Positions 6,921 through 27,304 of a DNA stretch of 57,289 nucleotides are shown here, in pieces. The DNA is from Bacteroidota bacterium (GTDB lineage Bacteria; Bacteroidota; Bacteroidia; 2-12-FULL-35-15), in the NCBI GenBank assembly GCA_947466965.1, contig CANIFU010000010.1:1-57289 (forward strand), written 5' to 3'. The notes beneath the pieces were generated by a model, which was given only the letters and a program-made list of their open reading frames with translations, ran no database searches and was not told where the DNA came from. The number at the start of each line of letters is the position of its first letter. Position 1 is the first letter of the stretch. A program made the position numbers and the translations under genes.

Positions 6921-7520
6921 ATGAAAAAATACATTCTTATTGTTTTATTGTTTACCGGCAGCATTTTAGTTCAAGCGCAAAATCCTCCTATGCTTCTTTC
7001 TTTTGAAGTGAACAGATTTCAAAATGAACTACTTGTTACATGGGAAATTGAATCAGGAAATTTGTGTACAGGATTAAAAGTAGAACATTCCAGCGATTCA
7101 ATAAACTTTACGAGCATCTACGAATATCCGGGCATCTGCGGCAGCTCAAGTGCAAACGAGCGCTATTCATTCTCACATAAAAATCCGAATGCGAATGCAA
7201 GAAATTATTACCGCATCAATTTAAACACAAATGGTGTATCAGCTATTTTAGGAATCACATTCATCAAACTGGAAGAAAGTGGCTATGCGCTGTTTCCAAT
7301 GCCAATAGAATCGGGTAGTAAACTCTATTTCAGCAACGAAAATAATGGAACGGCTGATATTGCAATATTCAATTCATCCGGGGCAGTGGTATTGAACTTA
7401 GAAGGATTAAAAACGAATGAATTATCATTAGATAAAATAAACCTGCCCTTAGGTGTTTATCATTTCAAGATCATGGTAGCAGACAGAAAAATTGAAGGAA
7501 AATTTATAGTCGTAAAATAA
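6921..7520 (+). CDS. Secreted protein with probable T9SS C-terminal sorting domain
   Basis: The 199-residue product starts with a signal peptide (MKKYILIVLLFTGSILVQAQ). The central part is a beta-rich module, LSFEVNRFQNELLVTWEIES, like those that precede sorting domains in Bacteroidota exoproteins. The last 75 residues, from YALFPMPIESGSKLYFSN to GVYHFKIMVADRKIEGKFIVVK, match the pattern of type A T9SS sorting domains: Pro near the start, a GxY-type turn, then a final strand ending in Lys. It is probably exported through T9SS; no enzymatic domain is visible. Confidence 0.65.
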   Translation: MKKYILIVLLFTGSILVQAQNPPMLLSFEVNRFQNELLVTWEIESGNLCTGLKVEHSSDSINFTSIYEYPGICGSSSANERYSFSHKNPNANARNYYRINLNTNGVSAILGITFIKLEESGYALFPMPIESGSKLYFSNENNGTADIAIFNSSGAVVLNLEGLKTNELSLDKINLPLGVYHFKIMVADRKIEGKFIVVK

Positions 7521-7526
7521 TAAAAC

Positions 7527-7931
7527 CTACCAATCCTTTTTTCTGAGTTTTTTAATTTCGGCGTCTCTCTTTTTGCCGGTCAAGCGTCTTTCTTTTGAAC
7601 CCTTACTTGGTTTTGTAGGTCGTCTTTTTTTCTGAACTACAAAACATTTGTGAATCATTTCATAAAATTTTTTGATCACAATTTCTTTATTGCCGAGTTG
7701 ATTCCGTTCTGTTTGAGAGATTACCTGAAGTATGCCATCTTTAGAAATTTTATTATATAACTTGGTAAGAATAATCTCTTTTTGTTCAGGTGAAATTAGA
7801 GCAGAATTTACAACATCAAAATCGAGTTCCACTTTCGTGGAAACTTTATTAACGTTTTGTCCGCCTGCGCCTCCACTCCGGCTGGTTTTAAAACTAAATT
7901 CCGAATCGAACTGAATTCCTTTGATGTTCAT
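7527..7931 (-). CDS. arfB: Alternative ribosome-rescue factor ArfB
   Basis: The 134-residue protein has the peptidyl-tRNA hydrolysis motif GGQ in SRSGGAGGQNVNKVSTKVEL near residue 18 and the basic C-terminal tail (KKRRPTKPSKGSKERR onward) that enters the empty mRNA channel of stalled ribosomes. Length and tail distinguish ArfB from RF1/RF2. It releases nascent chains from non-stop ribosomes, independently of tmRNA. The gene converges on the preceding secreted-protein gene with only six bases between stops. Confidence 0.95.
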   Translation of the reverse strand: MNIKGIQFDSEFSFKTSRSGGAGGQNVNKVSTKVELDFDVVNSALISPEQKEIILTKLYNKISKDGILQVISQTERNQLGNKEIVIKKFYEMIHKCFVVQKKRRPTKPSKGSKERRLTGKKRDAEIKKLRKKDW

Positions 7932-7987
7932 AAAACAAAATTAACATAAATTATCCAATGCCTTAATTGATTATTTTTGTAGTAGAA

Positions 7988-9289
7988 ATGAAACACAATC
8001 TCTGTATATTATTATTTCTCGTTTTTAAGGCAAACACATTTGCACAAAAAGATATTCCTTCTAAAATAAAATACTACATCAATAAAGCAGAAAAATACTT
8101 AGACAAAGAAAAAGCGCTTTCGGGTTATTATTCCATTGACAAGGAAGGGATAAAAATATACAGTTCTCCTCAAGATAAAGCGAATCAGAAAGCGGAATTT
8201 ACGGTAAGTTGGCTCTTATCTGATTACCTGGATGATAAAATACAAAACCATACAACTCAGCAGATGTTTGACATCTATTTCAAAACAGGCATATTTAAAT
8301 TTCCTGAAGGAGAATATCCCGATGCAGTTTATATTAAAAAAAATCCGAATGCTAAAAAGCTGGAAGGAATAAGAATCGCCATTGACCCGGGACATATTGC
8401 AAATGATTTCACAATGGGTGATCTCGAAAAGAAGCACATCATCATCAAAGGCGATAGCATAAACGGAATAAAGGACTCTATTGAAATTGCTGAAGGTATG
8501 TTAACATTCGCAACAGCAAAATTACTGAAAGATAAATTAGAAAAAGAGGGTGCTATTGTATTCTTAACACGAACAGCGGATAAATGCGCTTTTGGAAAAA
8601 CATTTTCTCAATGGAAAAAACATGATTTTAAAAACACCCTTGATAGCCTATTTAAAATCGGGGAACTCAAATCGTCGCAAAAAAAATACTTCTTAAGTAG
8701 CAAAGTAAAAGAAAGAGATATTTTCAGAGTTATTTTTCGCGATTTAGAATTAGCAAAACGGGTAGAATTGATCAACACATTTAAGCCAGACTATACAGTT
8801 ATTATTCATTTCAATGTAGACGAATCAAATTTGGAATGGAAAAAAACAACATCAAAAAACTTTAACATGTGTTTTGTTGCAGGCGCATTTATGAAAAATG
8901 ATTTATCCAATAAGGAAAAACGTTTTGAATTTTTGCGACTACTGGTTTCTGATGATTTAGAAAAATCAATTGCGCTAAGCTCCTTTTTTACCAAGCAATT
9001 TGAATTGGAACTACAAGTACCTATTGCAAAAACAGGTGATGCAAAATACCTGTTGGAAGGCTGCTTACCTTCAGAAGCGGAGGGTGTGTATTGCAGAAAT
9101 TTGCAGCTTCCACGCTATATTCACTCTCCTGTTGTATACGGAGAAACACTCTACCAAGACAACATAAACGAGTGTAAATTATTATATGAAGAAACCGATA
9201 AGACAAAGAACAAACGCATACAGCAGGTTGCAGAAGCCTACTTCAACGGCATCATGAATTTTGCAAACACCATCAAAAAATCTCCATAA
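7988..9289 (+). CDS. N-acetylmuramoyl-L-alanine amidase, Amidase_3 type
   Basis: The start at 7988 gives MKHNLCILLFLVFKANTFAQ, a signal peptide; the frame opens seven codons earlier. The protein (433 residues from this start) carries the Amidase_3 zinc motifs: IRIAIDPGH near 133, a glutamate in IEIAEGM near 168, LTRTAD near 195, and the second histidine in YTVIIHFNVD near 275. It should cleave the amide bond between MurNAc and the stem peptide in the periplasm. The ligand order is conserved, but several inserts make it longer than typical AmiC. The AMIN domain is absent. Confidence 0.8.
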   Translation: MKHNLCILLFLVFKANTFAQKDIPSKIKYYINKAEKYLDKEKALSGYYSIDKEGIKIYSSPQDKANQKAEFTVSWLLSDYLDDKIQNHTTQQMFDIYFKTGIFKFPEGEYPDAVYIKKNPNAKKLEGIRIAIDPGHIANDFTMGDLEKKHIIIKGDSINGIKDSIEIAEGMLTFATAKLLKDKLEKEGAIVFLTRTADKCAFGKTFSQWKKHDFKNTLDSLFKIGELKSSQKKYFLSSKVKERDIFRVIFRDLELAKRVELINTFKPDYTVIIHFNVDESNLEWKKTTSKNFNMCFVAGAFMKNDLSNKEKRFEFLRLLVSDDLEKSIALSSFFTKQFELELQVPIAKTGDAKYLLEGCLPSEAEGVYCRNLQLPRYIHSPVVYGETLYQDNINECKLLYEETDKTKNKRIQQVAEAYFNGIMNFANTIKKSP

Positions 9290-15553: not shown

Positions 15554-16450
15554 ATGAGATTAAAATCTATCACATTTAGAGTAGCATTTTTATTCTTATC
15601 AGCTACAGCTTTACTTTCGGCAGGTTGCGGAAACGGAGAAACTTCAGATTCGGAGGAATTACTTCCGGTTGACAGTACACAAACTACTATTTTGAATGTT
15701 AACGGTGAGATTTTCAGTATCCCCTCACCTATTCAAACAGCATTCCTAATTAAAGGAAGTGGCGCATCCTATAGCAAGGAAATTCTTAACCCATCCAATA
15801 AATCATCAGAATATGCTACAAACTTTTCAAAAGCCTTGAATTTAGGGATTTACGGAGCAGATTTAGGGTATGTAACGATTTATGATCAAAACCAGGATGC
15901 GATTGGATATTTAAATTCTGCTAAGAAATTAGCTGATGAATTAGGCGTTTCTGGAGCATTTGACGCCAATACCATTGAACGTTTTGCAAAAAATTTGGGA
16001 AACAAAGATTCTATGTTGGTTTTAGTGGGTGTTGCTTTTCGTTCAAGTGATGCATATCTAAAGAACAACGACCGAAGCGATGTAAGCGGTTTGGTATTAG
16101 CTGGTGGCTGGTTAGAAAGTTTATACTTTGCAACAAATGTATACAAAACAAAAGCAAACGAAGATATAAAACGAAGAATTGCTGAGCAAAAAACTTCTTT
16201 ACAAAGTTTAATCAAATTGCTTACTCAATTTTACAGCCAACCGGAGTATACTGAATTAATAGACAACCTAAAAGATCTTTCAACTGTTTTTGAAGGTGTT
16301 GAATTCAAATACACCTATGAAAAACCTTCGACCGATGTTGAAAAGAAAATAACAACAATCAACAGCAAATCGTCAGTGAAAATTACTCCAGAACAAATAG
16401 ATTCTATTACTCAAAAGGTGAAATCAATCAGAAGTCAAATTGTAGGTTAA
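15554..16450 (+). CDS. Lipoprotein of unknown function
   Basis: The 298-residue product has a lipoprotein signal peptide: a basic N-terminus, a hydrophobic stretch, then LLSAGCGNGE. The acidic linker DSEELLPVDS follows. The mature protein appears largely alpha-helical, including LGVSGAFDANTIERFAKNL and a long charged helix near the end. I recognise no domain. It heads a plus-strand run with the small secreted protein (49 bases downstream) and the TerB-ABC exporter, and has a good predicted promoter. Family members in other Bacteroidota are likely but unnamed. Confidence 0.7.
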   Translation: MRLKSITFRVAFLFLSATALLSAGCGNGETSDSEELLPVDSTQTTILNVNGEIFSIPSPIQTAFLIKGSGASYSKEILNPSNKSSEYATNFSKALNLGIYGADLGYVTIYDQNQDAIGYLNSAKKLADELGVSGAFDANTIERFAKNLGNKDSMLVLVGVAFRSSDAYLKNNDRSDVSGLVLAGGWLESLYFATNVYKTKANEDIKRRIAEQKTSLQSLIKLLTQFYSQPEYTELIDNLKDLSTVFEGVEFKYTYEKPSTDVEKKITTINSKSSVKITPEQIDSITQKVKSIRSQIVG

Positions 16451-16499
16451 TTTCGGTCCGCTAAGTGCTCAATCGTTACATAAAAAATTTATAACAGAA

Positions 16500-16934
16500 A
16501 TGAAAAAGGGAATTTTAAAATTAGTGTTCGTTATTGTAGGATTCATTACAATAAACAGTGCAGCAGCGCAAATTGCGGATACCGTTGCTTCTCAATGTGC
16601 AAAAAACTTAGAGAATATATTTATTTCTGACGGACAACAATATCGTGCATTATTGATGAACGCCGATGAAACAGCAGAGTTTCATACAACACTTTATGGT
16701 GGTACTGTATATAGAATCGCTGCTTGTAGCGGTCTATCGGATGGGAACCTGATTTTTTCTGTATACGATTCAGAGAGAAATCTTTTGTTTACAAACAGTG
16801 AATTTAAAAATGCTCCATATTGGGATTTCAAAATTACTAATACACTTGATTGTTTAATTGAAGCGAAATTGAGCGGAAGTGCTCAAGGTTCAGGAAGAGC
16901 AGTTTTACTGATCGGATTTAAGCAACAAAAATAA
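16500..16934 (+). CDS. Small secreted protein of unknown function
   Basis: A signal peptide (MKKGILKLVFVIVGFITINSAAAQ) precedes about 120 mature residues that look beta-rich: YRALLMNADETAEFHTTLYGGTVYRIAACSG, then NLIFSVYDSERNLLFTNSEF and a C-terminal SGRAVLLIGFKQQK. The pattern resembles a small jelly-roll, pre-peptidase-like (PPC) module, but the match is loose. The gene follows the lipoprotein gene by 49 bases and ends in a strong terminator, so these two probably form the transcription unit. Confidence 0.65.
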   Translation: MKKGILKLVFVIVGFITINSAAAQIADTVASQCAKNLENIFISDGQQYRALLMNADETAEFHTTLYGGTVYRIAACSGLSDGNLIFSVYDSERNLLFTNSEFKNAPYWDFKITNTLDCLIEAKLSGSAQGSGRAVLLIGFKQQK

Positions 16935-16953
16935 TATCGAGTAACAACCTTAT

Positions 16954-16992
16954 AAAAAAGGCATTAATTACTCCGGTATTAATGTCTTTTTT
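16954..16992 (+). terminator. Rho-independent terminator after small secreted protein
   Basis: A 9-bp stem (16960-16968 with 16978-16986) is extended by an A run on the left and a T run on the right. It lies between the secreted-protein stop and the exporter start at 17020, so the exporter may have its own promoter or depend on read-through. Confidence 0.85.
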
Positions 16993-17019
16993 TTTCATAA
17001 ACTATATTTTTATCCACCA

Positions 17020-20000
17020 ATGAGTGAACGAATATTAAAAGCCCTAATGCAAATGTTTGCAATTATTGCAAGGGTTGATGGCATAAATGACAATGGCCGA
17101 TTGATCGTGCAGTCTTTCTTAAAACAACAGTTGAATCAGGAATTAGTGGATCAATACCTGGCAATATTTGATGAATTCTTAGAAGCACATCATCAGGTTA
17201 CCAAAAAGAAAGATGGTACAGCAAAACGCACCTCTTTAAACTCGGTTAAAGTATTAAAAATTTGCACGCAAATAAACGGAGAACTTACTCAGGTTCAAAA
17301 AGTAGTTGTATTACTTCGCTTGATCGAATTTATTAATTCGAACACAGAAATTGCAGACCAGGAAATGGAATTCGTTATTACGGTAGCGGAGACCTTTAAC
17401 ATTGATGAAGAAGAGTTCAGACGCAGTATGGAATTTGTGAGAGCAGACATCAACAACATCCCTGACTCCTCTCGCATTCTGGTAATCGACAACATGACCA
17501 ATCACAACTTCACAGAAACAAAACATATTTTTGCTGAAGGAGTAACCGGTCAGGCTCGCGTTCTTTGGATACAGAGTGTGAATATGTATGCCTTGTTATA
17601 TTATGGTAAAAGTGATATTTTACTTAACGGACAACTACTTACGCAAGGGAAAGTATTTATCCTTACACCTGGATCATCTTTACGGAGCTCGAAAGTAAAA
17701 CCTGTTTATTACAGCGATATTCTGAGTGCCTTTATGAGCGACACTTCAAAAGCAAAAGTGTCATTCGTAGTAAAAAATTTAGAATTCAAATTCAAAGGTG
17801 GAAAATTAGGACTGCGGGATATAAACTTCAGCGAAGACTCCGGAAAGCTTATCGGAATCATGGGTGGTTCCGGTGCAGGTAAATCAACATTACTGAATGT
17901 TCTGAACGGAAACGAAATACCAAGCGGTGGTTCGGTAAAAATTAACGGAATAAATATACACTCCGAAAAAGCAAAAATCGAAGGAGTAATCGGTCACGTT
18001 TCTCAAGACGATTTATTGATAGAGGAACTAACCGTTTTCCAAAATTTATTTTACAATGCGAAACTTTGTTTTGGAAATAAAACAGATGCCCATATTAATC
18101 AAATGGTTACTGATGTTTTAACGAGTATCGGTTTAATTGAAACCCGCGACTTAAAAGTAGGTAGTCCATTAGAAAAAACAATTTCTGGAGGACAACGTAA
18201 GCGGCTAAATATAGCCTTAGAATTAATTCGTGAACCGTCTGTACTTTTTGTTGATGAGCCAACATCCGGATTATCATCAAGAGATTCAGAAAATATTATG
18301 GACTTACTAAAAGAACTTGCACTAAAAGGTAGATTAGTTTTTGTGGTGATCCATCAGCCATCATCCGAAATTTTTAAGATGTTTGACAAGTTGATGATTT
18401 TAGATGTTGGTGGTTATCCAATTTATTATGGGAATCCTGTTGACTCTGTTATCTATTTTAAAACAGTTGTGAACCATGTAAATAGTAATGAAAGTGAATG
18501 TATTGAATGCGGTAATGTTAACCCCGAACAAGTATTTAACATTATTGAATCGAAAGTATTAGACGAATATGGTAACATGACCCGTAATCGGAAAGTTTCT
18601 CCTTCTGAATGGAATGTTCACTATAAAGAAAAAATTGAAAAGACAATTGAAGAAGTAGAAAATATAACTGAAATTCCTGAAAGTACTTTTAAAATTCCAA
18701 ACAAGTTTAAGCAGTTTAAAGTATTTATTACCCGTGATGTTTTGTCAAAATTAACAAACACACAATACGTTTCGATTAACTTATTGGAGGCTCCATTGCT
18801 AGCTTTTATCCTTGCTTACTTTATTAAGTTTGTAAATTTAGATTTATCAAATAAAGTTGGTTATACGTTCCGTGAAAATGAGAACATCATCATATATATG
18901 TTCATGGCGGTAGTTGTGGCGCTTTTCATTGGATTAACAGTAAGTGCGGAGGAAATTATCCGCGACAGAAAAATCCAGAAACGAGAATCGTTTCTCAATC
19001 TGAGTAAAGGAAGTTACATCTGGTCAAAGATCATCATCATGTTTAGTTTGTCGGCAATACAAGCATTTCTGTTTGTGTCGGTAGGGAACTATGTTTTAGA
19101 AATACAAGGAATGACTTTCCAGTATTGGGTGTTATTATTTAGTTCATTCTGTTTTGCAAATATGTTAGGGTTAAACATTTCATCCAGCTTTAACTCTGCT
19201 GTTACAATTTACATTTTGATTCCTATTTTAATTATCCCACAATTACTTTTTAGTGGAGTAATGGTTAAGTTCGATAAGTTAAATCCAATCATTACATCTC
19301 AAAGTGTGGTGCCAGCTATTGGCGACATGATGGCTTCTAGGTGGGCATTTGAAGCACTTGCTGTAAAGCAGTTCAAAGAGAATAAATTCAATAAAAAAAC
19401 ATACAAATACGACAAAGCAATACATATCGCTACCTACAAAAAAGATTATTGGATAGTCGACATGGCGAAAAAGATTGATTTCTGCGAGGCAAACTACAAC
19501 AAACCTGAAAGCAAGCAAGAGGTCATTGCTGCTTTAAAAATGATTCAGAATGAACTGATGAAAGAATTAAAAGTTCCAGGAAATGAAAAATTGAAAGTAA
19601 GCGGAATAGATAAATTAAAAATCGGTTCTTTTAGTCCAACTATTGCCAGTGACATTCGCGACTTTGTATCAAATACACTAAGAAATGTTTACCTGAACAA
19701 CTTCAAGCGCGCTTCTGATTTGAAGGAAAAAGAAGTAACACTAATGAACAAAGACAGTGTTTCTCGTTTACAATACTTAAAAGACAAAGATGATTACGAG
19801 AATGAAAGTTTATCGGATCTGGTTACAAACAGAAATACACCATATCGTATACTGGACCTCAATGGGGCTTTCGTTCAAAAAATCGATCCAATATATCTTG
19901 ATCCAGTTGATTCGGATGTAGGGCGTGCTCACTTTTTTGCACCGCGTAAAAAATTCTTTGGCAAATATTATGACACCTATTGGGTAAATATTTGCGTAAT

Positions 20001-20112
20001 ATGGTTAATGTCTATAATACTAGCCATTACACTCTATTTTGATGTATTAAAAAACCTAATAAATGGATTAGGAAATATATTCGGCAGGTTTAGCAGAAAA
20101 AAAGGGCGTTAG
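17020..20112 (+). CDS. ABCG-like exporter with TerB-like N-terminal domain
   Basis: This 1030-residue half-transporter has an unusual layout. Residues 1-145 are helical and acidic, like a TerB domain. A beta-rich segment (about 160-245) follows. The ATPase has Walker A GGSGAGKST near 283, signature SGGQRKRLN near 388, Walker B VLFVDEPTSG near 408 and an H-loop in VVIHQPSSE near 444. A CIECG motif lies near 491. An ABC2-type membrane region spans about 588-780, then an extracytoplasmic insert of some 200 residues, and a final membrane helix near 990-1010. The ATPase-first order resembles the eukaryotic White/ABCG group. The substrate is unknown. Confidence 0.85.
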   Translation: MSERILKALMQMFAIIARVDGINDNGRLIVQSFLKQQLNQELVDQYLAIFDEFLEAHHQVTKKKDGTAKRTSLNSVKVLKICTQINGELTQVQKVVVLLRLIEFINSNTEIADQEMEFVITVAETFNIDEEEFRRSMEFVRADINNIPDSSRILVIDNMTNHNFTETKHIFAEGVTGQARVLWIQSVNMYALLYYGKSDILLNGQLLTQGKVFILTPGSSLRSSKVKPVYYSDILSAFMSDTSKAKVSFVVKNLEFKFKGGKLGLRDINFSEDSGKLIGIMGGSGAGKSTLLNVLNGNEIPSGGSVKINGINIHSEKAKIEGVIGHVSQDDLLIEELTVFQNLFYNAKLCFGNKTDAHINQMVTDVLTSIGLIETRDLKVGSPLEKTISGGQRKRLNIALELIREPSVLFVDEPTSGLSSRDSENIMDLLKELALKGRLVFVVIHQPSSEIFKMFDKLMILDVGGYPIYYGNPVDSVIYFKTVVNHVNSNESECIECGNVNPEQVFNIIESKVLDEYGNMTRNRKVSPSEWNVHYKEKIEKTIEEVENITEIPESTFKIPNKFKQFKVFITRDVLSKLTNTQYVSINLLEAPLLAFILAYFIKFVNLDLSNKVGYTFRENENIIIYMFMAVVVALFIGLTVSAEEIIRDRKIQKRESFLNLSKGSYIWSKIIIMFSLSAIQAFLFVSVGNYVLEIQGMTFQYWVLLFSSFCFANMLGLNISSSFNSAVTIYILIPILIIPQLLFSGVMVKFDKLNPIITSQSVVPAIGDMMASRWAFEALAVKQFKENKFNKKTYKYDKAIHIATYKKDYWIVDMAKKIDFCEANYNKPESKQEVIAALKMIQNELMKELKVPGNEKLKVSGIDKLKIGSFSPTIASDIRDFVSNTLRNVYLNNFKRASDLKEKEVTLMNKDSVSRLQYLKDKDDYENESLSDLVTNRNTPYRILDLNGAFVQKIDPIYLDPVDSDVGRAHFFAPRKKFFGKYYDTYWVNICVIWLMSIILAITLYFDVLKNLINGLGNIFGRFSRKKGR

Positions 20113-20134: not shown

Positions 20135-20173
20135 AACTGCTTTACCCTTAAACAAGGTAAAGCAGTTTTTTAT
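20135..20173 (+). terminator. Rho-independent terminator after ABC exporter
   Basis: A perfect 12-bp stem (20135-20146 with 20156-20167) with a nine-base loop is followed by a T-rich run. It ends the exporter transcript. Confidence 0.92.
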
Positions 20174-20290: not shown

Positions 20291-20327
20291 AAAAAAAACG
20301 AGATAAACGCATCTGCATTTATCTCGT
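20290..20327 (-). terminator. Rho-independent terminator of siaB-siaC
   Basis: On the minus strand a perfect 10-bp stem (20327-20318 with 20307-20298) is followed by eight T. It lies 21 bases beyond the siaC stop codon. Confidence 0.92.
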
Positions 20328-20347: not shown

Positions 20348-20728
20348 CTATTCAGCTACCTGAACCATTTTAAATGGAACATTGATGATTGCTTGGTAAT
20401 CTTCACCTGCTTCTAACATATCCTCATCATCTTCTTCATAAAACCAATTGATAACAACAGCACTTCCATTTTTATTGATTGCTTCTAATTTTTTGAAAAC
20501 ATCCAAAATACATTTAGATGAACTCGTATTAAAATATTCTAATTGGATATTTACGTTTGTTGCTGCTTGAGGTTTTCCTGCATATTTCTCTAACCAATCT
20601 ACTAATGGTTTGTAAAACTCTATAGAGTTTTCAGGAATTGATCGACCTTTAATTTCTAAAAATCCTTTCCCTGTATCAAATGTAATGGTTGGTGTTTTCG
20701 GTGTTCCTTCAATTGAAATTGTTTCCAT
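20348..20728 (-). CDS. siaC: SiaC-family (DUF1987) partner-switch target protein
   Basis: The 126-residue protein fits the SiaC/DUF1987 family: ISIEGTPKTPTITFDTGKGFLEIKGRSIPENSIEFYKPLVDWL at the N-terminus, then IQLEYFNTSSSKCILDVFKKLE near residues 61-82. The Thr/Ser cluster NTSSSK corresponds to the site phosphorylated by SiaB in Pseudomonas aeruginosa, where unphosphorylated SiaC activates the diguanylate cyclase SiaD. The SiaB-like gene ends 10 bases upstream, so the pair is an operon. No SiaD homologue is in the window, so the downstream partner is unknown. Confidence 0.88.
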   Translation of the reverse strand: METISIEGTPKTPTITFDTGKGFLEIKGRSIPENSIEFYKPLVDWLEKYAGKPQAATNVNIQLEYFNTSSSKCILDVFKKLEAINKNGSAVVINWFYEEDDEDMLEAGEDYQAIINVPFKMVQVAE

Positions 20729-20738
20729 AATCTTATTT

Positions 20739-21284
20739 TTATTGTGATATTTTAATGTTTAAACTGAAAAATGAGAATTTATCGTCAACAGGAGAAAAAT
20801 TAAAATTAAGTTTTTCACCTGTTTTGCGAGCAATGTCTATCATCCCTAAACCACCTCCACCTTTCATGGACATCTCGCCGTTATTTAACACCGCTTTGTA
20901 ATATTCTTTTAATTCTTCTTTGGAAAGTAAATTGATATCTTCCAAACGTTTTTTCAGGCCTTCTACGTTTTCTTTTCTAATGTAATTTCCTGTAACAATA
21001 TTGTATTGGTTATCAATCTTACCAATCATAAAAATGGCAGAACGTATAACATCATTTTGTTCGGGTGCAACTTCATCCATATGGTGATACAAATTTTGAA
21101 GGCACTCCACCAAAACATTGTACACTTTCTTTTTGATCTTTGGCTCTTCCTGCAAATTATCCAATTTGGATTCCATTATTTGCAAGATGGATGTCAGCAA
21201 TTCGGATGTGATATCTCCCTTAAATGATAGCATAATATTATTACGCTCCATTTTATCGTAAAAATCGTAAATATCTAACATCAT
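20739..21284 (-). CDS. siaB: SiaB-family protein kinase (DUF6272)
   Basis: This roughly 181-residue protein has a reduced GHKL ATP-binding fold: an N-box-like VYNVLVECLQNLYHHMD near residue 60 and a glycine-rich lid, MKGGGGLGMIDIARKTGE, near 140. This is the SiaB-type kinase pattern, related to anti-sigma-factor kinases. It should phosphorylate the adjacent SiaC-like protein, opposed by a SpoIIE/PP2C phosphatase. The frame can also open at a GTG at 21290; I prefer the ATG at 21284, with another at 21281. A -7 element is at 21340-21347. Confidence 0.85.
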   Translation of the reverse strand: MMLDIYDFYDKMERNNIMLSFKGDITSELLTSILQIMESKLDNLQEEPKIKKKVYNVLVECLQNLYHHMDEVAPEQNDVIRSAIFMIGKIDNQYNIVTGNYIRKENVEGLKKRLEDINLLSKEELKEYYKAVLNNGEMSMKGGGGLGMIDIARKTGEKLNFNFSPVDDKFSFFSLNIKISQ

Positions 21285-21339
21285 AAACACTAAGTTAAAT
21301 CGATAAAGCTGATACTGATTCTGTTAATTATTAATTAAG

Positions 21340-21347
21340 CAAATATA
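21340..21347 (-). promoter_or_regulatory. Predicted -7 element for siaB-siaC
   Basis: TATATTTG on the minus strand matches TAnnTTTG and lies 55 bases upstream of the siaB start. No clear -33 TTG is present at standard spacing. Confidence 0.4.
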
Positions 21348-21455
21348 TAAATAAGTTTAGTTACTCATACATGGAACTTCTGTTTTTTTAAATCTAAATA
21401 ATTTAACTTATGAACCAAAAGTGAAAATGGAACTCAAAACGAGTTATAAGTAGAA

Positions 21456-22280
21456 TCAATTCATATTAAAAACAAACGTATTCCCATTTATAGTAAGTGT
21501 AGCCTGGTTATCGCAAACACCGGTCCCAAAATCAACAGTACGAACGGATAATCCCTCGGGGGTAATATCAATTCTACCGGAATCAACCCAAGGACAAGAA
21601 AACTTCTTCACAACAGGAACCACTACATTAACCGTATAATTTTTCCCTTCACGATTTTTCCCTACGGCAGTTCCAGAAGATTGAAAAACATCATTACTTG
21701 CAATTGTATCGCCCATACCAGCAGTTTGAGTCAATAATCTTGTACATGCCCACTCCAAATTCCAGCTGGCAGCAATACATTTTCCACCGATAATAGTATT
21801 CGTATAGGAATAAGCAGCATTGTGAACAATCATCATACTGTCGCAAGTATATTGCACAAAATTAGCTGCTCCGGCATTTTTCACATAATAGTTTAAAAAT
21901 TTGACAGTAACAATTGCGCCTAATGAATCCCAAGAACGATCAAAAGTTGCCTGAATCTGACCTTTACGAGTTTTACTATCTATCGCATCAACAGTTCCAA
22001 CAGTACCATAATCAAGGATTAATGTGATCGGGAAACCATCCGCAGTATCGGAAGGGGCAATAATAATAGTAGGAGAACCAGACATCATCGATTTCACACC
22101 TTGTTCTTTAATAGCAATACTATTAATAACAGGCATACGAGATGTAAACTCGCCTTCGCAAACGCTGTTATCAACAGCAGATTGAGTTTCAGTATCCGGT
22201 TCTTCTTTTTTACAAGAGGTGAATGTAAATGCAGTGATTGCTGAAACAATTAAGAGAGCAGTAAAAAGAATACGTTTCAT
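21456..22280 (-). CDS. Lipoprotein of unknown function in the Sia-like cluster
   Basis: From the start at 22280 the product begins MKRILFTALLIVSAITAFTFTSCKKEEPD, a textbook Bacteroidota lipoprotein signal with acidic residues shortly after the cysteine, so surface exposure is possible. The open frame continues 22 codons upstream. The mature 250 residues look beta-rich (ITLILDYGTVGTVDAIDSKTRKGQI, YTVNVVVPVVKKFSCPW) with four or more cysteines, ending TLTINGNTFVFNMN. I recognise no family. It has its own predicted promoter at 22325-22355, between the propeller-phosphatase and siaB genes. Confidence 0.7.
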   Translation of the reverse strand: MKRILFTALLIVSAITAFTFTSCKKEEPDTETQSAVDNSVCEGEFTSRMPVINSIAIKEQGVKSMMSGSPTIIIAPSDTADGFPITLILDYGTVGTVDAIDSKTRKGQIQATFDRSWDSLGAIVTVKFLNYYVKNAGAANFVQYTCDSMMIVHNAAYSYTNTIIGGKCIAASWNLEWACTRLLTQTAGMGDTIASNDVFQSSGTAVGKNREGKNYTVNVVVPVVKKFSCPWVDSGRIDITPEGLSVRTVDFGTGVCDNQATLTINGNTFVFNMN

Positions 22281-22324
22281 ATTAAGTAAGTTTTGTTTTT
22301 TAGCTTCATTTATTTCGTAAGCGT

Positions 22325-22355
22325 CAAATATATGAATATTTAACAAGTAGTCAAA
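22325..22355 (-). promoter_or_regulatory. Predicted promoter for the cluster lipoprotein
   Basis: On the minus strand TTTG (22355-22352) and TATATTTG (22332-22325) are 19 bases apart, matching the TTTG-N19-TAnnTTTG pattern. The start codon at 22280 lies 44 bases downstream. Confidence 0.55.
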
Positions 22356-22380
22356 AAGGATTCAATGAATTCCGAATTGT

Positions 22381-25300
22381 CTAAAAACGAATTCCGATAA
22401 CAAGAATGTCATCAATTTGCTGATGCGCCCCTCTCCAATTTTCAAAGGTACTATCGAGCGTTTTCTGCTGATCATGCATACTTTCCGACTGCATAGCAAG
22501 GAGCAATTCGTTAAATCTTTTGACCATAAACTTCTTCCCTTTTTCGCCTCCAAACTGATCGGCATAACCATCTGAAGCCATATAAACGGTATCCCCTTTC
22601 TGCAATTTGATTGTATGCGATTTAAATAACCTATCCGCATCTAACTGGGAGCCTCCAATCGGATTTTTGTCTGCATCTATTTTATTAAATTTATCTTTAT
22701 TTACAACAAACAGGGGCCGGTATGCTCCAGCATATTCCAAAGTAGTATTTTCACTATCTACACAACAAATTGCAACATCCATTCCATCGCTCGTATCCAC
22801 TACATTGGATCCCTGTTTTAAAGCAGCCTGAACCCCTCTGTGTAATGCATTTAAGATCTGATCTGGATGGGTTGTTCCATTTTCACTAATAATCTGATTC
22901 AATAAATTATGTCCGATCATACTCATGAATGCACCAGGCACGCCGTGTCCGGTACAATCTACTGCTGCAATAATTTTTTTACCATCTTTCACACCAAACC
23001 AATAAAAATCACCACTTACAATATCCTTTGGTTTATAAAGAATAAAAGAATCCGGAAAATACTTATAGATTTGTTCCAATGGAGGCAAAATAGCCAACTG
23101 TATTCGTTTTGCATATTGAATGCTGCTGGTAATGTCTTTATTTTTTTGCGCCAATTCATGTGTTCGCTCCTCAACTTTTTCTTCCAGAATTTTATTTTCA
23201 CGTGTGATAGCGCTGGTCCTGTATTTCAAAAAGGCCCAAAATCCACCAATAATTAAAAATGCACAAAGTCCATAGAACAATTTTGTTTTCCAAAAAGGTG
23301 GATGGATAGTGATGTAAAGCGTAACGCCTTCATTGTTCCATGTTCCATCGTTATTTGCTCCTCTTACCCGCAACACATAATCACCACCACTTAATTCGGT
23401 ATAGCTTGCATATCGCTGTGTGCTCGGTGGTGACCAATCGGCATCAACACCTTCGAGCATATACGAGTATTTATTTTTTCTGGGCATTTGATAATCCAAT
23501 GCAACAAAATCAAAGGAAAAGAAATTTTGTTTGTATGATAAGGTTAAATATTGCTTATCATAAATGAGTGTATCCAATAATACTTCTTTACCAAAACGCT
23601 TATAGGAAACAATATGCACAGGTGGAACATTGGGATTGTCTTTAATTTTATCAGGGAAAAATGCGTTAAATCCATTTACACCACCCAAAAGAATTTCACC
23701 GTTTTTGGTTTGATGATAGGCACCCTGATTAAATTCTAAACCTTGCAAACCATCATTCACATCATAGTTTCTGAATGCCGCACCATTTTCATTTTTTATT
23801 TCAGGATTAAATTTGGAAACACCTTTATTGGTAGTCATCCAAAAACAACCTTTACTATCAGGCAAAATTGAATATATAAAATCATTCGGAAGTCCATTTT
23901 TCTCAAAGTAAGATTCAAATTTCTTAGATTTTACATCGAGTTTATTTAAGCCATTGGAAGTCCCGAACCACATATTTCCGTGTGCATCTTCATAGGAACA
24001 GTTTACAGAATTTGAACTGATACTATTTACAATCTCATCTCGATTAAACGTGTTAAAAACCTTTGTGGTAGGATTAAATCGAACTACGCCACCACCATCT
24101 GTCGCAATCCAGATATTCTTTTTACGATCTTCATAAACATGATAAATATTATTAATACTTAATCCGTTTTCACTATTATAATTTAAAAAAATCTTAGTAG
24201 TCTTATCGTAAACAAACACACCAGCACCGTATGTTCCTATCCAAATTTTACCATTCGAATCCTGAAAGATAGAAACAATTGTAGCAGCGCTCACTGTATT
24301 AAATTGAGGATAAACGCTTATTTTTTTTGTTTTTTTATCATAGGAAATTAATCCCGCTCCCCAAGTTCCAACCCAAATTATTCCATCATTATCTTCCATC
24401 AAAGAGAGAATAGAATTATTGCCAGAAGGAGATAATTGAGGATAATGCTGGTAGGTATTTGTTTCCCTATCGAGTGAAGACAAACCGCCACGACCAGTTC
24501 CGATCCATAAAAGACCATCTCGGTCCTGAAGCAAGGCATATACAATATTGCTTTTAAGTCCATTTGTGGAAGCGGAATTATTTGTATAAAACTTAAATTT
24601 ATTGGATGTTCGAAAATATGCATTTACTCCCCCACCTTCGGTCCCTATCCAAACAGAACCTACTTTATCGTGATAGATGCACTTAATTTGATTATTTGAA
24701 ATACCTGAACTGTTTTTTTCATCAAAAGAAATATTCCGGAAACGTCCTGTTTTTTTTTCGTACAAATCAATACCTGCGCCATAGGTTGCCAACCAAAGGA
24801 AGCCATTCGCATCTTCGGTAATACTCATTATTTGATTATTAACTAAGGAATTTTTTTCTGAATCCTTTTCTCTTAAATTACTGATGAATTTACCCGTTTG
24901 AGGGTTAAAAACCTGAATGCCTGCACCGAAAGTACCAATCCAAAAAAGGCCATCTTTATCTTCGTATATTGAACGGATTAAATTGATATTCTCAAATAAC
25001 AAATTCCCTGAATTATCGAACTGATTAAAGTGTTCGAAGCGGCCAGTTTTTTTATCGTATGAATTTAATCCTCCCCCATAGGTTCCGATCCACAATTTCC
25101 CATCTTCCGTTTCGTGCAAGCACCAAGCATTGTTATTGGAAATCGAATTTGCATTTTTGTAATCGTTATAGTAACGAGTAAATTTCTTTGTTTTTGGATG
25201 ATAGGAATTTAATCCGTCATCTGTTCCTATCCATAATAATCCATCTCTATCTTCTAATATGGCTTTTACATTATTATTACTTAAACTATTTTTATTACTC

Positions 25301-25683
25301 GAAACACCAATATGGTGTGTAAATTTACCAGTACTTAAATTATAAGAATCGAAGCCTCCGCCATTGGTTGCAATAATTAAATCACCATTCCGGGTTTCAT
25401 ATAAGGCATTTATAAAATTGTTTGAAATCGAACTTGAGTCGAGCTGATTGTTTTTATAAACAACGATATTATATCCATCATAACGATTAAGTCCATCTTG
25501 GGTTCCATACCACATAAACCCTTTACTATCTTGCAGAATACAATTCACCACCCCCATAGACAAGCCTTGATCAGCGGTTATATGACTAAATTTAAATTCC
25601 TGGGAATTCGCAGAAATTGCAAATCCAAAAAAAAATGAAAGGAGTGAGAAAACTCTTAAATATGTGGAGTGAATTTTATTCAA
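22381..25683 (-). CDS. Propeller-sensor SpoIIE/PP2C serine phosphatase
   Basis: The 1100-residue membrane protein joins a periplasmic sensor to a cytoplasmic phosphatase. After a signal peptide (to about residue 27) come some 14 regulator-propeller repeats (WYGTQDGLNRYDGYN and similar, about 30-640), then a Y_Y_Y domain near 690-780. One membrane helix at about 803-822, a coiled coil to about 860, and a SpoIIE domain (about 880-1098) follow, with SGDFYWFGV, AVDCTGHGVPGAFMS and MASDGYADQFGG as metal-binding motifs. The start is TTG at 25683; a stop lies four codons upstream and no ATG precedes the signal peptide. It is a SiaA-like candidate for the adjacent SiaB/SiaC. Confidence 0.9.
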   Translation of the reverse strand: MNKIHSTYLRVFSLLSFFFGFAISANSQEFKFSHITADQGLSMGVVNCILQDSKGFMWYGTQDGLNRYDGYNIVVYKNNQLDSSSISNNFINALYETRNGDLIIATNGGGFDSYNLSTGKFTHHIGVSSNKNSLSNNNVKAILEDRDGLLWIGTDDGLNSYHPKTKKFTRYYNDYKNANSISNNNAWCLHETEDGKLWIGTYGGGLNSYDKKTGRFEHFNQFDNSGNLLFENINLIRSIYEDKDGLFWIGTFGAGIQVFNPQTGKFISNLREKDSEKNSLVNNQIMSITEDANGFLWLATYGAGIDLYEKKTGRFRNISFDEKNSSGISNNQIKCIYHDKVGSVWIGTEGGGVNAYFRTSNKFKFYTNNSASTNGLKSNIVYALLQDRDGLLWIGTGRGGLSSLDRETNTYQHYPQLSPSGNNSILSLMEDNDGIIWVGTWGAGLISYDKKTKKISVYPQFNTVSAATIVSIFQDSNGKIWIGTYGAGVFVYDKTTKIFLNYNSENGLSINNIYHVYEDRKKNIWIATDGGGVVRFNPTTKVFNTFNRDEIVNSISSNSVNCSYEDAHGNMWFGTSNGLNKLDVKSKKFESYFEKNGLPNDFIYSILPDSKGCFWMTTNKGVSKFNPEIKNENGAAFRNYDVNDGLQGLEFNQGAYHQTKNGEILLGGVNGFNAFFPDKIKDNPNVPPVHIVSYKRFGKEVLLDTLIYDKQYLTLSYKQNFFSFDFVALDYQMPRKNKYSYMLEGVDADWSPPSTQRYASYTELSGGDYVLRVRGANNDGTWNNEGVTLYITIHPPFWKTKLFYGLCAFLIIGGFWAFLKYRTSAITRENKILEEKVEERTHELAQKNKDITSSIQYAKRIQLAILPPLEQIYKYFPDSFILYKPKDIVSGDFYWFGVKDGKKIIAAVDCTGHGVPGAFMSMIGHNLLNQIISENGTTHPDQILNALHRGVQAALKQGSNVVDTSDGMDVAICCVDSENTTLEYAGAYRPLFVVNKDKFNKIDADKNPIGGSQLDADRLFKSHTIKLQKGDTVYMASDGYADQFGGEKGKKFMVKRFNELLLAMQSESMHDQQKTLDSTFENWRGAHQQIDDILVIGIRF

Positions 25684-25854
25684 AATAGTTTATTTGGAAG
25701 TAAATATATAAATTTTTGGGAAAGGTAATTGAGTAAAGGGGAATTGTGTGAATAGATAATTGGGTGGCAGAAAAGCAGCAGAACACATCTGTCTCAAATT
25801 ATTTAGTAAGCTTTTTACTTCATCACTTTATAACCTTAATTACTTTATCACCCC

Positions 25855-27258
25855 TTATATTCTAATACCAATAACCAAAATATCATCGACTTGCTCCAAT
25901 TGGCCTTTCCATAATTCGAAATGATCGTTCAGAATATGCTTTTGTTCTTCCATGCTATGATCCTGTTTCTCAATCAACAATTCTTGAAATTTCTTATATT
26001 TAAATTTCTTTCCTTTCGGGCCACCAAACTGGTCGGCATAACCATCAGTAAACAGATAAACTGAATCCCCTTTTTCCAATTTTATTACATGATTCGTAAA
26101 TACTTTTATTAGTGCATTTTCTGTATCAGCGCCTATAGCCAGTTTGTCTGCCTTCACTTCAATACATTTTTTGTTACGGACAATGTATAAAGGGTTATTT
26201 GCCCCAGCATATTGCAGTTCCAGGCGATCGAAATTGATTGCACACAAAGCCATATCCATTCCGTCTTTAATAGAATTGAGGGTTTTGGTAATTTCCTTAT
26301 TTAAAAAGCCCAACGCATCTGCAGGGGTATTAACTGCAGCATCAGAGGTTGTTTGATTTAAGATTGTACTCCCAATGATGCTCATCAAAGCACCAGGTAC
26401 GCCATGTCCGGTGCAATCAACCGCAGCCATAACAATAATCCGTTCGGATGGGTTCCCATTTTGAGGTGTTGTGTTGACAACAGCATGCCAATAGAAATCG
26501 CCGCTGACAATATCTTTGGGTTTAAATAGGATGAAATAATCCTCCAAAACTTGCTTAATTTTATCTTCAGTTGGCAAAATAGCATGTTGGATGCGCAGCG
26601 CATAGTTGATGCTGTCGCGGATATCTTTATTTTTCTCTTCAATGATTTCATTTTTGATCTCCAATTGTTTATTAGATACAGCCAACGCCAAACGAGCAAT
26701 GATCTCCTTTTTAGTAAGATTTGTTCTGGTATGAATCAGCAAAATAGTAAACAAGGCAACCGAAATTGTAAGCATTCCGCCATTAATAAGCATATCAGTG
26801 ACCGACAAATGGCCAAAAATAAGAAAGCAGACAATGTTTGCAAAAAGAGAAATAGCGACAACCCAGTAAGAAAAAATTGGACGCCACAAAACAAACATCC
26901 CTGCACCAATAAACAAAGCTATATAAGCAAACGTGTGTTTTTGAAGTTCAGAAACATTTAAAACACTGAACATATAAGCATTCTGAACCGAAATGCCAAC
27001 AAAAGGAATAAAAGCAATTATCTCAGGATGTTCTAAAAATTTGCTCTTCCGAAGAAGAACAACAAGAGTAAGAAAAGTAACCGATATACGAAAAATAAAA
27101 AAATCAGTAAAATGATTGGGGCTATTAAAATAATCGGCAATGGCCCAAACAGGATTTAAAGCAACCGCTACCCATGCAATAAGAACGTGGTATTTAAAAG
27201 CTGCTGCTTTTAGTTCGGGTTTCCAATCAAGGGGAGTAATTTGACTGATTTTCGCCAT
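25855..27258 (-). CDS. Multi-spanning membrane SpoIIE/PP2C serine phosphatase
   Basis: The start at 27258 gives MAKISQITPLDWKPELKAAAF; the frame opens seven codons earlier. About six hydrophobic helices occupy residues 20-190. A coiled coil (ARLALAVSNKQLEIKNEIIEEKNKDI) leads to a SpoIIE domain near 235-466, with PKDIVSGDFYWHAV, AVDCTGHGVPGALMS and LFTDGYADQFGG. The phosphatase half is a close paralogue of the one encoded just downstream, including matching C-terminal ends (QVDDILVIGIRI). It probably dephosphorylates the SiaC-like protein or a paralogue; this is inferred from context. Confidence 0.9.
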   Translation of the reverse strand: MAKISQITPLDWKPELKAAAFKYHVLIAWVAVALNPVWAIADYFNSPNHFTDFFIFRISVTFLTLVVLLRKSKFLEHPEIIAFIPFVGISVQNAYMFSVLNVSELQKHTFAYIALFIGAGMFVLWRPIFSYWVVAISLFANIVCFLIFGHLSVTDMLINGGMLTISVALFTILLIHTRTNLTKKEIIARLALAVSNKQLEIKNEIIEEKNKDIRDSINYALRIQHAILPTEDKIKQVLEDYFILFKPKDIVSGDFYWHAVVNTTPQNGNPSERIIVMAAVDCTGHGVPGALMSIIGSTILNQTTSDAAVNTPADALGFLNKEITKTLNSIKDGMDMALCAINFDRLELQYAGANNPLYIVRNKKCIEVKADKLAIGADTENALIKVFTNHVIKLEKGDSVYLFTDGYADQFGGPKGKKFKYKKFQELLIEKQDHSMEEQKHILNDHFELWKGQLEQVDDILVIGIRI

Positions 27259-27276
27259 AATTATTTTTAATGCAAT

Positions 27277-27304
27277 CAAATTTACTCTTTAATAATTGTA
27301 CAAA
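27277..27304 (-). promoter_or_regulatory. Predicted promoter for membrane SpoIIE gene
   Basis: On the minus strand TTTG (27304-27301) and TAAATTTG (27284-27277) are 16 bases apart. The start codon at 27258 is 18 bases downstream, giving a short leader. Confidence 0.5.

Follow-up and report, generated by a model that had tools for sequence, protein, structure and literature searches.

Organization of the locus

The window analyzed here is a stretch of 57,289 nucleotides from a Bacteroidota bacterium (assembly GCA_947466965.1, contig CANIFU010000010.1), in which a minus-strand gene cluster related to the SiaABC Ser/Thr partner-switching proteins of Pseudomonas aeruginosa faces a plus-strand operon encoding an ATP-binding cassette (ABC) exporter. 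A preliminary description, made from the sequence of the window, had confined the switch to 20348-27258 and had proposed that its output must differ from the diguanylate cyclase SiaD. As detailed below, the switch unit exceeds this segment and includes the exporter operon at 15554-20112, the exporter being the probable output of the switch. Read from 27279 to 20348, the minus strand carries the following features:

25855-27279, minus strand: second SiaA-like phosphatase, five predicted transmembrane (TM) segments followed by a PP2C (SpoIIE) domain (PF07228, NF038263, TM segments and motifs)
22381-25683, minus strand: siaA-like sensor phosphatase with signal peptide, periplasmic Reg_prop propeller and Y_Y_Y domain, one TM segment and a cytosolic PP2C (SpoIIE) domain (Pfam, NF038263, PDB 6k4e)
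21456-22280, minus strand: lipoprotein of 274 amino acids, lipobox FTSC (sequence; slot kept in the genus)
20739-21290, minus strand: siaB, SiaB-family Ser/Thr protein kinase, 183 amino acids from the first possible start (NF038262, DUF6272, 6kko_A)
20348-20728, minus strand: siaC, SiaC-family switch phosphoprotein of 126 amino acids (PF09345, PDB 6kko_C, motif position)
20298-20327, minus strand: intrinsic terminator of the siaBC operon (13-pair stem, T run)

The plus strand carries the convergent exporter operon:

15554-16450, plus strand: exporter-linked lipoprotein of 298 amino acids, lipobox LSAGC, all-helical model (homologues at exporter loci, paralogue on contig C24, AlphaFold2 (AF2) model)
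16500-16934, plus strand: small secreted protein of 144 amino acids with signal peptide (homologues at exporter loci; alignment A3)
17020-20112, plus strand: TerB, FHA-like and ABCG-type exporter of 1030 amino acids, nucleotide-binding domain before transmembrane domain, proposed output (ABC_tran, ABC2_membrane, TerB, siaC linkage)
17020-17442, plus strand: TerB helical domain, exporter residues 1-141 (AF2, VIA Z, PF05099)
17467-17739, plus strand: FHA-like domain, exporter residues 150-240 (fold lists, column conservation)
20135-20167, plus strand: terminator-like hairpin and T run downstream of the exporter gene (12-pair stem, 9-base loop, read from the sequence)

Since each operon has a terminator-like hairpin of its own, the exporter and siaBC operons end separately.

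Conservation of the switch proteins

The siaC product matched the Pfam SiaC profile PF09345 (DUF1987) far above its cut-off of 24.5 bits (E 1.6e-45, 154.1 bits), and P. aeruginosa SiaC (6kko/6k4f) was its only relative in the PDB (E 4.5e-20 for 6kko_C); against the equivalog NF038265, which describes the SiaABCD-type protein, it scored 104.7 bits and thus falls below the 150-bit cut-off. Ten bases separate siaC from siaB, whose product matched DUF6272 (E 5.6e-43), the SiaB-family kinase profile NF038262 (170.7 bits, cut-off 85 bits) and P. aeruginosa SiaB 6kko_A (E 9.7e-16), an ATG two to three codons downstream of the first possible siaB start being the likelier one. The siaC-siaB operon was therefore correctly recognized in the preliminary description, as were the two same-strand SpoIIE/PP2C membrane phosphatases, both of which have Pfam support. 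The PP2C domain of 22381-25683 found SiaA 6k4e as its sole PDB match (E 1.3e-31), and 25855-27279 matched PF07228 with E 4.8e-20. Neither phosphatase reaches the 700-bit cut-off of the full-length SiaA equivalog NF038263, the matches being restricted to the C-terminal part in both cases (209.6 bits over residues 826-1100 and 176.5 bits, respectively).

The acceptor Thr of the NTS motif is present in SiaC and, because NTSSSK spans residues 67-72 (N67-T68-S69), corresponds to T68, numbered as in P. aeruginosa, where the triple mutant N67A/T68A/S69A no longer binds SiaD. SiaB keeps both the catalytic Glu (VECLQN) and the glycine lid (GGGGLG), confirming that phospho-site and lid are intact as first noted, and both PP2Cs retain the metal-site motifs GDFY, DCTGHG, [ST]DGYADQ and DDIL. 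With these residues in place, SiaB is predicted to phosphorylate SiaC at T68 and the SiaA-type PP2Cs to reverse this modification.

Bacteroidota hybrid two-component systems carry Reg_prop/Y_Y_Y periplasmic sensors, and the phosphatase at 22381-25683 has the same periplasmic architecture; unlike in those systems, its cytosolic output is a PP2C phosphatase and not a histidine kinase. The lipoprotein at 21456-22280, for which the mechanical open reading frame extends to 22346, is a genus-level companion located between siaA and siaB, a slot that likewise holds a gene of 267-341 amino acids in loci L239, L268-L272, L274 and L275.

Absence of GGDEF proteins

The genome under study (G000; 3.1 Mb in 128 contigs, 95.6% complete) contains three siaC, two siaB and 18 SpoIIE phosphatase genes. 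A profile search, which gave matches in 8 of 14 control genomes, detected no GGDEF domain in the whole genome, extending what had been reported for the window. Within the genus sample (36 genomes; the sole genus sampled from its order), SiaC is present in 34 genomes at 1-15 copies each, and GGDEF is missing from 34 genomes; in the two genomes with GGDEF, none was located on a siaC-bearing contig among the matches listed. In addition, a sample of 296 Bacteroidota genomes comprises 17 with SiaC, five of them Bacteroidia and 12 outside Bacteroidia, and none of the five Bacteroidia genomes, all of which combine SiaC with the exporter, carries GGDEF. A hidden GGDEF protein or second SiaD encoded elsewhere was rejected on these grounds, and no GGDEF gene accompanies a second siaC copy. 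Because GGDEF is absent genome-wide and from nearly all of the genus, the earlier proposal of an output other than SiaD is supported.

The 18 SpoIIE/PP2C phosphatases compared to three SiaC proteins raise the prospect that many sensors may feed few switches. The third siaC (contig C1, L026:9389-10349) is paired with siaB, has no adjoining exporter or phosphatase, and encodes a protein whose acceptor Thr is replaced by Ser (LSSSS).

Linkage of siaC with the exporter

The second siaC of the same genome, located on contig C24 and 59% identical to the window siaC, is part of an operon siaC-lipoprotein-exporter-membrane PP2C, in which the lipoprotein (BLASTP 8e-27) and the exporter are paralogues of the window genes at 15554-20112, indicating co-duplication of the switch and exporter genes. 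The order siaC-lipoprotein-exporter, with or without PP2C, was found again in about 10 further genomes of the genus. Family f9 carries a single collinear operon, siaA-siaB-siaC-exporter-lipoprotein-secreted protein, and family f8 the convergent layout of the window. Overall, 25 of the 50 exporter genes of the genus have a siaC within 10 kb, as compared to an expectation of 1.15 derived from copy number and genome size. The neighbourhood search for a conserved third partner that had been suggested for other Bacteroidota thus yielded the exporter together with the lipoprotein. Since the siaC-exporter-lipoprotein linkage is conserved in several arrangements, the exporter, initially listed with a neighbouring lipoprotein as a candidate by proximity, can be upgraded; of the two lipoproteins, that at 15554-16450 is the more important.

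An exporter N-terminal profile gave strong matches in five of the 296 Bacteroidota genomes, corresponding to all SiaC-bearing Bacteroidia of this sample, and a marginal match in a sixth (1.4e-4, 175-amino-acid frame); because the genomes are not independent (three families), we take this co-occurrence as support and not as a p-value. Across 80 named loci collected via the exporter itself, a lipoprotein homologue was present at 61, the small secreted protein at 60 and siaC at nine, always convergent and downstream, so that the exporter unit either predates its local siaC link or extends beyond it.

One genome encodes a natural fusion protein of 367 amino acids in which SiaC is joined to a TerB-FHA-like part, within an operon PP2C-siaB-siaB-siaC-fusion-exporter. 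Its N-terminal part scored 22 bits against a 121-sequence TerB-FHA profile (best shuffle 6, E ~2e-5), which supports its assignment as a divergent relative of this module. SiaC and exporter trees were concordant for three module types, namely the C24 type (100/99 and 100), the window type, and f9 with the fusion locus.

The exporter and its N-terminal module

By its sequence, 17020-20112 is an ABCG-type exporter related to the ABCG/PDR proteins: ABC_tran (residues 265-416) precedes ABC2_membrane (565-756), the protein resembles ABCG1 (E 2e-43, residues 256-757) and CDR1, and its C-terminal half is ABCG-like. Residues 1-247 were modelled confidently, with a pLDDT of 86 and a pTM of 0.84. The TerB fold is related to 2h5n and 2ou3 (VIA Z 9.3 and 7.2, respectively), and Pfam TerB PF05099 was matched by all 53 aligned exporter homologues (best E 7.8e-10), the window exporter scoring 21.4 bits, slightly below the 24.4-bit cut-off. 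The TerB label given in the preliminary description is therefore appropriate; the FHA-like domain behind it had been overlooked. Fold lists for the latter are filled by FHA structures (Z 6-7 over 70-85 residues; best Foldseek E only 0.05), Pfam FHA matched neither the window exporter nor its homologues, and N203-G204 and G218 are among the conserved columns.

The lipoprotein at 15554-16450 gave a helical AF2 model (pLDDT 80), no Pfam match and an uninformative fold search (best Foldseek E 0.39). The last two predicted TM segments of the exporter are separated by a long region of low conservation (residues 790-985), which far exceeds the length seen in ABCG proteins and may extend to the lipoprotein. 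A known anti-phage defence system was rejected, as PADLOC matched generic ABC-ATPases only, and nothing relevant on a connection between TerB, ABC and PP2C proteins emerged from a literature search.

Probable stalk-type outputs and the SiaC surface

Outside Bacteroidia, the gene 3' of siaC often encodes a GGDEF protein, a histidine kinase (HisKA), a class III cyclase, a PP2C-like protein or a short protein. The N-terminal parts of these proteins align as a single stalk, K-[IL]-x-[RK]-[IV]-[SG]-D-x-x-Q-x-[KE]-L, which occurs joined to GGDEF, HisKA, class III cyclase or PP2C domains, or alone. This motif fits the SiaC-contact helix of SiaD, in which R80, I81, S82, D83 and Q86 make the contact (eLife 2021, PMC8457831). 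A strict pattern search of all collected DNA found the motif restricted to siaC loci of the stalk type, and the stalk profile was positive in 11 of the 12 SiaC genomes outside Bacteroidia, serving as positive control. The same profile gave one marginal match in the five exporter genomes (E 0.0036) and none in the exporter or in any of the 36 genus genomes, that under study included. Neither the exporter nor any genus member thus showed a docking stalk of the SiaD type, and this genome lacks both hallmarks of a SiaABCD cyclic di-GMP (c-di-GMP) system, the stalk and the GGDEF-type SiaD output.

In the SiaC tree, exporter-linked and stalk-linked copies lie on opposite sides (92/87, from few columns). 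Exporter-linked SiaC proteins keep Y65, N67, T68 (31 of 31) and W95; at the SiaD-contact positions 29, 79 and 114 they have R/K, K and I/L, respectively, whereas the residues of stalk-linked copies at these sites are mostly acidic or polar.

Proposed mechanism and alternative explanations

These results suggest that this group of uncultured Bacteroidota has redeployed the switch as a gate for export, and we assign a probability of roughly 0.68 to the reading that a Ser/Thr partner-switching module of the SiaABC type has the ABC exporter, and not a diguanylate cyclase, as its output. In such a model, the envelope sensors (propeller-PP2C and five-TM PP2C) would dephosphorylate T68 of SiaC and SiaB would re-phosphorylate it. 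SiaC in one phosphorylation state, presumably the unphosphorylated one by analogy with SiaD, would dock on the cytosolic N-terminal TerB-FHA-like module and thereby gate the ABCG-type exporter, for which the lipoprotein (15554-16450) and the secreted protein (16500-16934) may serve as envelope partners or cargo.

Several observations weigh against this model. No siaC lies within the locus DNA examined at 71 of the 80 named exporter loci, near the genus exporter loci L260-L267 or near two additional exporter copies in each f9 genome, and G324 (87% complete) has the exporter and no SiaC; exporters without a nearby siaC are thus numerous, and the exporter-lipoprotein unit can therefore exist without a local SiaC. 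In the window, the siaBC and exporter operons are convergent and separately terminated. Moreover, the canonical phosphothreonine-binding residues (GR...SxxH) are not conserved in the FHA-like columns of the 53 homologues, so that a canonical reading of phosphorylated SiaC by this domain is conceivable at best. Finally, the fusion was seen in one genome only, its TerB-FHA part is divergent, and hhalign with the lone sequence gave 4% probability. The scarcity of siaC at exporter loci, the convergent layout and the third siaC, which has a siaB and no exporter beside it, would agree with a SiaC that governs something else, such as a transcription factor or an enzyme encoded elsewhere, the exporter being a frequent neighbour in a shared envelope-stress island. 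We consider this unlikely in view of the collinear f9 operon, the recurrence of siaC-lipoprotein-exporter operons across the genus, the excess of linked exporters over expectation, the concordant trees and the fusion itself.

Transporters can also be sensors, and the TerB-FHA-ABC protein with its lipoprotein could sense or transport and signal into SiaC from upstream. The frequent occurrence of the exporter without siaC, and a constant core made of lipoprotein and exporter, would be compatible with this arrangement; however, the f9 exporter sits directly after siaC, the slot of SiaD-type outputs elsewhere, and SiaC is the output adaptor in the sole studied system (PMC8457831), which renders it improbable. 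Least probable by far is a vestigial switch, or one cross-talking with a c-di-GMP enzyme missed by the assembly: the fragmented and incomplete assembly and the GGDEF protein of two genus members speak for it, but GGDEF is missing from the rest of the genus and from four other exporter-type genomes, the catalytic and phospho-site residues are all intact, and T68 is invariant in exporter-linked SiaC.

Comparison with known systems

The module shares with P. aeruginosa SiaABCD (PMC7647112, PMC8457831) the SiaC, SiaB and SiaA-type PP2C homologues, T68, the kinase Glu, the PP2C metal-site motifs and the gene order siaA-siaB-siaC-output. It differs in that SiaD/GGDEF is missing and the TerB-FHA-ABC exporter and lipoprotein fill the output slot, in that the SiaD-contact residues of SiaC are altered (positions 29, 79 and 114), and in its periplasmic Reg_prop propeller sensor, P. 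aeruginosa SiaA being a HAMP-type sensor. The best analogue for a phospho-controlled FHA ABC exporter is Mycobacterium tuberculosis Rv1747, which has genetic linkage to the kinase PknF and uses its FHA domain to bind partners (PMC3908365, PMC5549992). Rv1747 bears FHA domain(s) and the window exporter an FHA-like one, and both are genetically tied to Ser/Thr phosphorylation, which regulates Rv1747 and would regulate the window exporter. The arrangement is not homologous. The protein described here has a TerB domain and an FHA-like domain without the canonical phosphothreonine residues, and control would pass via a kinase of the SiaB type and SiaC as STAS-like adaptor. In HsbA-HsbD and BgrV-BgrR (cited in PMC8457831), a phospho-controlled STAS-like protein likewise docks on a partner and sets its activity, but these partners are diguanylate cyclases and none is a transporter.

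SiaD is the single SiaC output studied so far, and the literature searched describes DUF1987 in other bacteria merely as 'widespread'; concrete outputs can now be named for other lineages, and the stalk represents a predicted short docking motif that is open to mutation. We regard it as an even bet that SiaC serves generally as a phospho-adaptor and docks through either of two interchangeable modules, a portable coiled stalk outside Bacteroidia (cyclases, histidine kinases, phosphatases) and TerB-FHA in Bacteroidia (ABC exporter). An exporter output would explain how a lineage nearly free of GGDEF keeps and multiplies SiaC switches, up to 15 copies. Docking on TerB-FHA, if true, would amount to post-translational gating of a transporter by a partner switch, and Ser/Thr partner-switch control of an ABC exporter would couple export to envelope sensing with no need for transcription or c-di-GMP.

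Further SiaC loci

In the genus, SiaB-SiaC, SiaB-SiaB and SiaC-SiaC fusions (L245:6605-7567, L241:8309-9406, L244:2899-4023 and 7428-8249) and tandem siaC pairs (L247-L249) were also encountered. Among stalk-type loci, SiaC is followed by a stalk-bearing class III cyclase or histidine kinase in L079, L083, L084, L066 and L067 (G283, G275, G237, G079), probably undescribed SiaC outputs. In G272 (L069:8661-9517), the stalk-GGDEF gene that follows siaC is split into two frames with in-frame stops and the adjacent siaA is broken, possibly a decaying SiaABCD copy or the result of assembly errors. An additional stalk-bearing protein, some 330 amino acids long and encoded away from siaC in G125:C3, G133:C27 and G272:C21, is a possible unlinked SiaC output.

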